DNA of 64,000 nt from Anthostomella pinea. Taxonomy: Eukaryota; Ascomycota; Sordariomycetes; Xylariales; Xylariaceae. The position numbers and the translations under genes are program-made. The notes below the pieces were generated by a model. The model made no database searches. It saw only the letters and a program-made list of their open reading frames with translations, and was not told where the DNA came from. Position 1 is the stretch's first letter, and the number at the start of each line of letters is the position of its first letter. Of the stretch, positions 1 through 39,233 are shown in pieces. The stretch is taken from positions 7,998,001 through 8,062,000 of the forward strand of contig CAUWAG010000003.1 in NCBI GenBank assembly GCA_963556695.1, in the 5' to 3' direction.

Positions 1-2690
1 TCTTCAGGGACCCGGGAGATGGATGGGTAACATCGATTCCCACAAGCATGGTCTTGTCTTCAGCGATAAGACCGAGGCGCGAGCGGTCCACGCTTTGGTT
101 GTTGCCACCCAATTTCAGGTTGAACTTGAGCGCAACGTTCGACATGCTGGTAGCAAATTAGAGTCAGTAATGACTCCTTTTCGACGAGAAATAAAGAGTC
201 GGAATGCGTATCTCGGGAGCAAGGACTCATGACAAAGGCCAGAAGAGGAAATTCGCCCCCGAGACACGGCTAGAAGGGGCAATAAGAGACTCGAAAATGT
301 ACATACTACTGATCCTGGCCCTTCTCCTTTTTTAGCTTATGTCCAACCGTGCAAATGGTGTGGATGCCGAATTTGACATCGCCGAGTTGTTTGATACGGT
401 TGTATATCGGGACCAGTCTCTCCGGGAGGATGATCAGTAGTAGATCCAGGGCTTGCGCCGCAACCTCCAGGTTCTTGTCCAATACCGGATCGTCCTGGCT
501 TTCGAGAACCCATCTCCGTCCGGCGACTGCGAGAAGTTTGAGTCAGCAATTGCCATTCAAAAAGACAATGGGAGAGGTCTCGGGACCAATCTAAGGGTGT
601 CTGAAAGGGGTGGGGGAAAACCGGAAAAGTTGCTTACTGGGCTCTGTTGTCTGCATTCCGACGTTTCTTAATACCTGTACAAACTTCTTTACCACTTCAA
701 CCAGACTGCTACTGTTGGTGAAAGCATCCTTATACTCGGGGAGCGATGGGAGCGATATGAGCACATATGACCACTTGGGCATGACCCCGCACTTGTTGAA
801 CTGGATTTTTTCCATGTTCCAAGTGCCATTGCGAGTCTGGGCGGGCTTGCCCCTGTAAGTCACCTTCGGGGCGTCGAGCTGCCGTCCCGGGACCGTGATG
901 AGACGCGGGTTGACAGAGACATGAAATTTGTTCTGTGTGAGTTAGCCGGGAGCAGGAACCAGTCAGCTATTGGAAATGTGTACATACCAGGATCGGGTTT
1001 GTCTGCGTCGAGAGACCAACCGTGCGAATGCCGTCCTTGACGATTGATCCCATGTTTTCCATCGGTCTGCGAACTGCAAACTGGATCATCTGCTCCGTCT
1101 GACTGGGCTCCAGCGCCGAGGCATTCTGGCCCTCGCAGACCATGCAAACCTCAGTAGGCAGATAGATCGGATTCTCTCTCGTGTGGACATTGACAACCGG
1201 CAGGTCGGGATCAGCGATCCTGCGGCCGTATGCTGCAGTAGACGGTGTCAATGACTCCGATCGCTTCGAAGATAGGGCGAAACTTACTCCTCAGAAAGAA
1301 GTCGTACACGCTAATATATCCACCAGCGGTTGGCGGACCGGCAACGGGCTGCTTGCTTGACTTGGGCCCTTTCTTCTTGGACGAACTCAGACTTGCTTGC
1401 GGGGGACCTGAGTTTCTCTGGCCTGAAGCAGAGGCCTCCAGCCAGAATTTGACGGCCTTGGCTCCCGCACCGTATTCCGGGACGATTGGCGGGTGCTCTG
1501 GAGGGGGTTTCCCTGTGCGGCCATCTTCGAGGGTTGCCAAGCCAAGAACGGTCTTGATGCGAGGGATTTCTTCGCTTTTCTTATTCTTTTTTCCCTTCAG
1601 ATGCGTAGTTCTAACGCGGAGCTTCCACAAGAAGCTGTTCAACTTGCGCTTCTTCCTGCCGCATTTAGCAATCAGTTGGTCCAGGGCCCGAGCATCGTAG
1701 AAAGCACCATGGCTGACATTGACATTGACCAGTACGCGGTTGGCGGCGACACGGACGCTGGCAAAAAAGCCACGAACGGCAGTCAGGCTTTTACCAAGAT
1801 GAAAGGTTTTGGCGTCAGTTTCAAGCGAGAATGTCTTGCTAGACCCAATGGTGGCGAGATTGCCCGCAGACTTGGAATAGTGGTTCAGGAAAATGTTGAA
1901 GGCCTGAATCATGTCCAGTTTGCTGTCATAAGCAGCTGACCAATCTGTAGAAGTCAAATATTCGGCAAGCTCACGAACACTGAGCGTGTTTGTGAATTTC
2001 AAAGTGACCTCGTACGTTGTGGCCTGGGCCAGGGGCTCGTCCTCGCCCTCAAAGCGGTAGGTAACAGGGATGACCACATCGTCGCTGGGAGGGATAACCA
2101 CCTTGCCGCCGGGAGGGATAACCACCTCGTCGCGGGGAATCTTTGTTCGCGAGAACAGGGTTGACTTGAAGTCAGTGACAATGTCCTCGTGCATCGGGGC
2201 CAGCTTCGAGGTCTCGAGAAGGAGTCGGACGATCTGGGTTCGCTTTTTGCCACCAGCATCGTCAGGTTTCATGGTGATCGCATAGCGATAGAGGGTAAGT
2301 TGCGGTGCCACAAGTATCTCGACGTAATTGGCCCACAGCGTGATGACCTTGCCCCGAGTGCCGTAGCCGGGTCGCGCGGGAAACTGGTCATTAAGCTTGA
2401 CTGAAGCGAGGGACAGGGCATTCTTGTTGGAGGCTTGTAAAGCATCCTCTAGCTTGTGAGCCAAAGTGTTCGGGGGTGGCGCAGGTCCAGGCCTGTTCAT
2501 GGAGATCAGTGGGTGGATTCTTCCTTTGCGTTTCAAGTGGAAGAGAGGTAGAGGAGCGGTGAACTCACGAGAACGGCGGTTCACGCGGTACACTAGGTCC
2601 ACCACCGCGGCCGCCGCCACCAAAGCCGGATCCGCCGCTGTTGCCTCCAGCAGGAACACGCCGGCCGCCTTTGCCGCCTTGGAAAGCCAT
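1..2690 (-). CDS. Argonaute (QDE-2-like), 3' end outside window
   Basis: Argonaute binds small RNAs and, when the PIWI triad is intact, slices targets in RNA silencing. Six exons read on the minus strand: 2569-2690, 1288-2492, 988-1232, 638-932, 307-526 and 1-146. They give about 744 residues before the window edge. The N-terminus is Gly/Arg-rich (MAFQGGKGG...). It is followed by the N domain (RPGYGTRG.VITLWANY), linker 1, a PAZ domain split by an intron (YISVYDFFLR then TYGRRIADPDLPVVNV), linker 2, a MID domain (LLLIILPERLVPIYNRIKQ) and the start of PIWI (YMSNVALKFNLKLGG, GIDVTHPSPGS). The Asp in GIDVTHP is the first residue of the catalytic triad; the others lie outside the window. The start at 2690 is chosen because the next exon joins in frame after removal of the 2493-2568 intron. 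The last intron (147-306) is the introner-like element described separately. The family assignment is secure. Confidence 0.93.
147..306 (-). mobile_element. Introner-like element, copy A (intron of Argonaute)
   Basis: This 160-bp intron of the Argonaute gene has donor GTATGT at 306 and acceptor CCAG ending at 147. Splicing restores the conserved GQDQ|YMSNVALKFNL junction. Its sequence is closely similar along its whole length to the 168-bp intron at 38520-38687 in an unrelated gene. The similarity stops at the splice sites and both copies are in the sense of transcription. The neighbouring exons show no similarity. A 6-bp hairpin (GAGTCA / TGACTC) surrounds the likely branch-point region, and an 11-bp stem (CGTGTCTCGGG with CCCGAGATACG, one G.T pair) folds the middle. 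Calling it an introner-like element is inference from these two copies. Confidence 0.8.
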
Positions 2691-38226: not shown

Positions 38227-39233
38227 TCAGTATAAAAGCTCCAATCCACAATTCCCAAGCCGGAACCTCGAGCGAAGCCCCTCGTTAGCTAACAGATCCG
38301 CCTCGCGATTCTGAGCCCGCGGCACCAGCCACCAGTCGACGGCGACCTCGGTCCGCTTGGCCGTGAGCCAGCCGTTGGTCGCCCACTTTTCGACCCAGCT
38401 CGTCATGCCTTCGACCAGGTACGAGGAGTCGGACTTGACGACCACGTGCTGCACGGGGCACAGCTTGTCGCAGGACTCCGGTATATTGCAGGGGAACTGG
38501 CCGCCGCGCACCGTATTCCCTCACAAATTGGAGTCAGTAATTACTCCTTTTATATGTTTTGCCGGAAAACAGGGAGTCGTAATGCACGTCTCGGGAGCAA
38601 GTGCTCTTCTTGACACAGGCTAGAAGAGGAAATCCGCCCCTGAGACACGGCCGGAAGGGGCAATAGGAGACTCTAAAATGTACCTACACGGCTGCACGGC
38701 CGTCAACGCGCCGATGGCCGCCGTCAGCTCGGCGCGCTGGCTCGTGTGCGGCGTCCCGGCCGGCGGCACGACGCGAAATGACAGTTTCCCTGCGTCATGT
38801 CCGTTGCGCTGTCATACAGCTCATCGTCGCACTGCTCGTCGTTGCCAAAATACACGCCGCACGCAGATGTGGTCGCGCCGGCGGTGCCATTGCCGGGGCA
38901 GGCGCCGTCCACGGCTACGATCAGCGAGTCTAGGTGGTAGCCGTAACGGCCACACTGCGATATCTGTGATTAGTGATTGCCTCCGTGATGAGATTCGTCT
39001 TGTCTGGTAAAAGTAGGTTCTCACGGGACATGTCCCCGGTGCGGAGCTGGCGCACCGCACGTGGACGAAGCCGCTGTTGCCGATTACTTCGAGGTTATTT
39101 GCGTGTCGCGGCCCGTGCTTGAGGTAGGAGGGGAAGGGGAAGCGGTTGGGGTCGAGCCAGGGAAGCCGCCCTTGTGATGCGAGTGCGTGTAGGTCTCTTC
39201 GCCGTCGGAATCGGCCATGTCGGTGTCGGCCAT
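38227..39233 (-). pseudogene. RNase H-like gene, probably broken
   Basis: The RNase H fold can be read in pieces on the minus strand. All four catalytic acidic residues are present: Asp in LIVAVDGACPGNGTAG, Glu in SQRAELTAAIGAL, Asp in HVVVKSDSSYLVEG and Asp in NREADLLANEGL. The pieces are not in one frame. A shift is needed near 39160 to join the ATG frame (39233) to PWLDPNRFPFPSYLKHGP. Another is needed between about 38790 and 38812 to join YFGNDEQCDDELYD to FRVVPPAGTPHTSQRAEL. I found no intron that fixes either. About 20 residues usually found between WLTAKRTEVA and WWLVPRAQNREAD are also missing. Two introns have good splice sites: 38955-39024, and 38520-38687, which is the introner-like element. 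Sequencing error is an alternative to true decay. Confidence 0.7.
38520..38687 (-). mobile_element. Introner-like element, copy B (intron of RNase H-like gene)
   Basis: This 168-bp intron has donor GTAGGT at 38687 and acceptor GAG at 38520. Splicing gives the in-frame join ALTAVQP-W-NTVRGGQFP. It aligns end to end with the 160-bp Argonaute intron at 147-306. By eye it is about 85 percent identical outside one variable segment, where copy B is about 8 bp longer. Shared blocks include TACATTTT.GAGTCTC, ATTGCCCCTTC, GTGTCTC, TTTCCTCTTCT, CTTGCTCCCGAGA and the 3' end AGGAGT.ATTACTGACTC. The orientation is sense in both genes. Confidence 0.8.

Follow-up and report, generated by a model that had tools for sequence, protein, structure and literature searches.

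The DNA analysed here, the window, is a stretch of 64 kb (C2:7998001-8062000) from a genome of 53.7 Mb in 16 contigs. At its left edge lies part of an Argonaute (QDE-2-like) gene on the minus strand, with an exon at 307-526, a phase-2 intron at 147-306 (copy 1, E010) and a downstream exon at 1-146 that runs on past the window edge. The intron has the donor GTATGT at 306-301 and the acceptor CAG at 149-147. From its sequence and the subfamily consensus, a near-terminal repeat, TTTTCGAGTC, was placed at 288-297 on the 5' side and an inverted partner, GACTCTAATTT, which shows no covariation across copies, at 155-165 on the 3' side. The sequence CTGAC at 163-167 is what we take, following the fungal consensus, to be a candidate branch point. 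An RNase H-like gene, also on the minus strand, has an exon at 38688-38800 (5' limit approximate), an intron at 38520-38687 and a downstream exon at 38240-38519 (3' limit provisional). The element corresponding to this second intron (copy 2, E020) extends over 38517-38687: the AG lies at 38521-38520, and the 8-nt element end GTGAGGGA finishes 3 nt beyond it, at 38517.

The two introns are strikingly alike. In a global alignment of 171 columns 131 of 157 aligned bases were identical (83%), and the score of 144 compares with -70 for the best of 300 shuffles. The preliminary description had estimated about 85% identity outside one short variable segment, which is borne out. It had also stated that both introns lie in the sense of transcription and splice in frame at conserved protein positions. 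The predicted proteins agree with this: removal of 147-306 would give ...KGQDQ|YMSNVALKFNLKLGG, which aligns without gaps to QDE-2 (KGQLGYFANVGLKVNLKFGG), and removal of 38520-38687 would give a protein whose Pfam RNase_H match spans the junction. The further claim that the likeness stops exactly at the splice sites has to be amended at the acceptor of copy 2, where the element runs 3 nt past the AG; elsewhere it stands. When the whole window was searched with a profile of the family, copy 1 and copy 2 were the only strong matches. The next best (7.9 bits, E 0.077) was the 3' part (534-589) of the second Argonaute intron (527-637, minus strand), which is possibly a decayed copy. Among 124 predicted introns five scored above 5 bits against two to three in shuffled controls, so we make no claim for decayed copies; four of the five lay within loci fetched as family copies and the fifth was this weak Argonaute intron.

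Both introns belong to a large family. A profile run over the fetched DNA found at least 105 copies in the genome of the window, 58 on the minus and 47 on the plus strand, distributed over 13 of the 16 contigs. The possibility raised earlier of an introner-like family with further copies elsewhere in the genome is thus realised: most copies are in sense orientation in coding genes, their boundaries fall at the predicted splice sites, and the 12-nt flanks share no strong likeness except T^A (the caret marks the point of insertion). When the genome was searched with copy 1, with copy 2 and with a copy of subfamily B, each search gave at least 41 matches, from 40 of 86, 91 and 91 candidates, respectively; since each search scored 40 candidates these counts are lower bounds. 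Four sequence patterns, allowing up to three mismatches, occurred at 32, 79, 75 and 77 places, while the reversed patterns used as controls gave none. All pattern places merged with part of the BLAST places amounted to 104 places on 13 contigs. Some loci carry two copies, and one place found by pattern only (C14:3114854) was missed by the profile. Three additional places (C14:863238, C5:4225636 and C7:3182073) were listed in a further search and are not among the 105. The closest pair of copies is 98.1% identical and the median identity to the nearest neighbour is 89% (98 copies). A search of viral contigs with one exact pattern gave no match. At locus L034 two same-strand copies (C16:3191481 and 3191740), separated by some 260 bp, perhaps lie in one gene, and the loci L126 and L103 have two degenerate or partial copies each, which are probably old.

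Both ends could be assigned in 98 of the 105 copies; in the other seven the 5' end is missing. The median copy is 163 nt long (range 70-203, 95 copies). Ninety-five of the 98 start with GT, 77 of them with GTATGT. An AG forms the end in 90 copies, 19 of which were assigned the first AG near the element end as a fallback, and CG in the eight copies of subfamily D. The usual element end lies 8 nt past AATTT and distinguishes the subfamilies: it reads GCTACCAG in A, GCGAG(G/A)AG in B and GCTTG(A/C)CG in D, with variants such as GCTAATAG in others. The consensus sequences of A and A2 form long hairpins when folded, at -46.1 kcal/mol in A (z -2.9 against base shuffles) and -48.7 kcal/mol in A2 (z -3.0), and have an imperfect terminal inverted repeat of 37-38 nt (shuffle p 0.0015 and 0.0025). 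For the B and D consensus the hairpin z-scores were +0.8 and +1.0, and a terminal inverted repeat was not significant (p 0.19 and 0.64). Common to all four subfamilies is a short pair, of which the 5' member resembles TTCGAGTC and the 3' member reads GACTC(T/A)AA. The near-terminal stem showed no covariation (712 paired cells against a shuffled mean of 715). Mean pairwise identity is 0.896 in A, 0.932 in A2, 0.930 in B and 0.908 in D. Because these values are similar, B and D appear to have spread about as recently as the others, and they did so without the full hairpin. The idea that B and D are the youngest subfamilies was dropped, as A2 is equally little diverged. E047 (L069) with a D-like body and E048 (L073) with a B body both bear the 3' end of subfamily A, so subfamilies may be able to exchange their final 8 nt. 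One copy (C6:844009, L032) has the donor GC in place of GT (GCATGT).

The position of the copies in genes was assessed in several ways. With 60 nt examined on either side and a score above -0.05 required, 95 of the 105 copies lie in a frame that is open in sense, compared with 58% of 788 random positions taken no more than 1.5 kb away; at 90 nt the figures were 80 of 105 and 46% of 746. Ten copies lack sense coding even by this loosest test. Chance often yields an open frame in antisense as well: at 60 nt, 70 of the 105 copies have one, and for 65 of these the sense frame is open too. The best coding strand was sense in 84 of 98 copies and antisense in 14, mostly by small margins. On each side of 67 of the 98 copies a frame is open for 50 codons or more (15, 28 and 24 copies in phases 0, 1 and 2); this does not hold for the other 31. 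The coding frames on the two sides of the element agree in 60 of 63 copies at a margin of 0.1, the exceptions being E011, E042 and E053; they agree in 62 of 70 without a margin and in 43 of 45 at 0.2, where one in three is expected by chance. Since any clean insertion without duplication keeps the frame, this agreement speaks for exact boundaries rather than for splicing. Pfam matches (E up to 0.001) ran across the junction in all nine peptides of one set and in five of ten of another, two of these five falling under Pfam's own cut-off. A target-site duplication of 3-8 nt was sought at many small offsets; the best case, 6 of 98 copies, was no higher than the top count in 40 shuffles. Two matches of three copies each (among 98) exceeded the shuffled maximum of two and were read as chance among many offsets.

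The insertion sites show a clear preference. In 75 copies with well-defined ends, a set that leaves out 23 of the 98 because of fallback acceptors, shifted starts or non-GT starts, the element lies between T and A in 25, where 2.1 are expected (P 3e-20). CA was found 11 times (expected 5.2) and GG 9 times (expected 5.6). Counted singly, T occupies position -1 in 35 copies, G in 15, and A occupies position +1 in 37. With fallback ends retained TA still accounts for 25 of 95 (expected 2.9). When 78 copies were divided into thirds by nearest-neighbour identity, TA was found in 12, 7 and 6 of 26, from the most to the least similar. Among 92 predicted ordinary introns in this DNA, 6 lie at TA (Fisher P 1.3e-5 against the family). 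Because these introns lack the preference, T^A is most simply explained as a property of the insertion step. It might be thought that T^A represents YpA, a site of RNA cleavage, but CA exceeds TG only by 12 to 5 (P 0.22); this is not significant, and single-strand recognition is thus unsupported. A palindromic site RT^AY was likewise set aside, as the pyrimidine at +2 may merely reflect that an in-frame TA has to be TAY.

Introner-like elements were reportedly described in Dothideomycetes by van der Burgt in 2012, and DNA-transposon introners of algae are said to have been described by Huff in 2016. The Dothideomycete elements (Collemare 2015, PMC4457414) resemble the present family in that near-identical introns occupy unrelated genes and form several families. 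For them, however, PMC8469720 cites a preference for AG/GY sites, whereas the site here is T^A, with G at -1 in 15 of 75 copies and GG in 9 against 5.6 expected; the descriptions consulted mention no subfamily without AG, as D is here. The sister stwintrons and cropped sister introns of Hypoxylaceae and Xylariaceae (PMC8469720, PMC12403724) are also duplication-free, seamless, confined to the coding strand and equipped with inverted repeats near their ends, and the A and A2 consensus here folds into a hairpin. However, the donor of sister stwintrons is split by an internal intron, while the present elements start with GTATGT, and [D1,2] sister stwintrons start with GGT, while G precedes GT in the 15 of 75 copies mentioned. 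In the accounts consulted (PMC8469720, PMC12403724) no site bias is reported for stwintrons, in contrast to T^A here, and B and D have spread without full-length symmetry. The DNA-transposon introners of algae and other lineages (Gozashti 2022, PMC9860276) share the many copies in genes. Target duplications or terminal repeats occur in many of those families, whereas the present one shows no convincing duplication, and some of those elements borrow a splice site, whereas ours carry both, except for the missing AG of D. Relative to the literature consulted, then, the T^A sites, the non-AG subfamily and the hairpin-poor subfamilies B and D differ from the described fungal elements, and the family may already sit, unnamed, in the supplement of PMC9860276.

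We consider it likely, with a probability of roughly 80%, that both introns of the window are copies of an introner family that inserts into exons in the sense direction. The source copy would itself supply the donor GTATGT, the branch point CTGAC and a 3' end. A copy would be inserted into exons of genes in sense, preferably between T and A and without convincing duplication of host bases, and would then be removed from the mRNA by the spliceosome. Could the likeness have arisen instead from duplicated genes, or from gene conversion between paralogues, without any mobile intron? Some hosts do belong to multigene families (transporters). The hosts tested are nevertheless unrelated, among them Argonaute, RNase H, nitrilase, RNase T2, UbiA, sedolisin and ketopantoate reductase genes, and, T^A apart, the 12 nt on each side of the element have little in common except for slight biases at positions -7, -4 and +2, so that we regard this explanation as highly improbable.

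The manner of spread is a separate matter. The bias for sense and exons together with the missing duplications favours a step linked to RNA or transcription, which might be reverse splicing into mRNA or into an exposed coding strand; transcription-linked, RNA-based copying has already been proposed for fungal introners (PMC8469720). The preference for T^A and the inverted ends of A and A2, on the other hand, lend some probability to a DNA-based step. In its full form this alternative holds that a non-autonomous MITE-like DNA transposon with TA targeting became an introner, a transposase moving it as DNA and selection keeping only the sense copies in exons. T^A is palindromic as DNA, A and A2 have the imperfect terminal inverted repeat described above, and most introners move as DNA according to Gozashti et al. 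(PMC9860276). Yet such an origin seems rather unlikely to us: a convincing duplication was not found, neutral intergenic copies would survive selection but few are seen, and B and D have no significant repeat although they spread about as recently. The origin of new introns is a long-standing question, and a family that appears to place itself inside exons shows how genes may gain them. The T^A preference provides a measurable fingerprint of the insertion step, where the fungal introners described in the sources consulted use seemingly random or AG/GY sites.

Subfamily D deserves separate consideration. The D-end pattern (up to three mismatches) identified eight copies, as well as the near ones E047 (end CTACCAG) and E030 (end CTTGCAG). 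In all eight the AG at the element end is absent, the end being GCTTG[AC]CG. Their centres are at C2:7531196, C5:4199498, C5:4060798, C4:2035059, C5:4093250, C11:130214, C14:2411886 and C6:335747. A sense open frame continues across the element at 60 nt in seven of the eight; E060 has no sense coding frame. Homology tests covered six loci (E065, E067, E083, E085, E086 and E090), and at each of them the flanking protein is open and matches a known family. With the element removed up to and including its CG, the nitrilase (E086) and RNase T2 (E065) align to solved structures without gaps near the junction. In sedolisin (E083), ketopantoate reductase (E090) and UbiA (E085) the junction residues align or adjoin a gap; no more than about 3 residues upstream of the junction there is a gap of 8 residues in the first, 4 in the second and 1 in the third.

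As a control for the CG end we used an alternative splice after TTG, 3 nt earlier, which adds one residue. Against solved structures this lowered the best score of nitrilase from 100.3 to 93.2 bits, that of sedolisin from 105.8 to 101.1 and that of ketopantoate reductase from 42.1 to 39.7. Pfam scores fell for RNase T2 (48.4 to 41.2), ApbA (69.5 to 65.5) and UbiA (157.5 to 155.2) and rose from 68.3 to 71.1 for CN_hydrolase and from 49.7 to 60.9 for the transporter E067, where the best match lay in a different register. These predicted junctions favour the CG end at five loci, with a mixed result for nitrilase, and not at E067. An AG at -27, within the element, was rejected as acceptor, since its use would bring a stop into E060, E067 and E090 and nine extra residues into phase-1 copies.

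Private changes amount to 0.6 to 7.4% in the D copies, and some of them may have arisen before insertion. Genes that had been dead for so long would roughly be expected to bear stops and frameshifts. That the six searched flanks are open despite this divergence favours removal of D from the mRNA at a non-AG site. We tentatively suggest, at slightly less than an even chance, that D consists of mobile introns that work without an AG acceptor, as GT...CG or GT...TG, and that a master copy lost its AG, could still be removed and multiplied to eight places. An explanation to which we also give somewhat under even odds is that D is not spliced and that the eight copies are recent insertions breaking their host genes. 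This would account for the missing AG at the end of every D copy, for the lack of a sense coding frame at E060 and for E067, where every AG between 60 nt inside the element and 90 nt beyond it would either shift the frame or bring in a stop. E047, 95% identical to a D copy, ends in AG, which means that AG-ended versions exist. GT-CG introns are, moreover, very rare; a table for Ganoderma gives 19 against 89,855 GT-AG introns (PMC11590231). It is the open sense frame across seven of eight elements, and the six open, family-matching loci with their private changes, that argue against broken genes.

The outcome matters for the manner of spread, since an element can reverse-splice only if it is excised at its ends; a subfamily without AG therefore separates the two leading models, in which copying does or does not depend on splicing at those ends. 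If D is unspliced, copying can proceed without splicing at the ends of the element itself, and this would count against reverse splicing. Either outcome, splicing without AG or no splicing, would be new relative to the literature consulted. The ketopantoate reductase-like gene (L050) seemingly holds, in addition to its D copy, an A-type copy about 480 bp away (C6:335747 and 336229).
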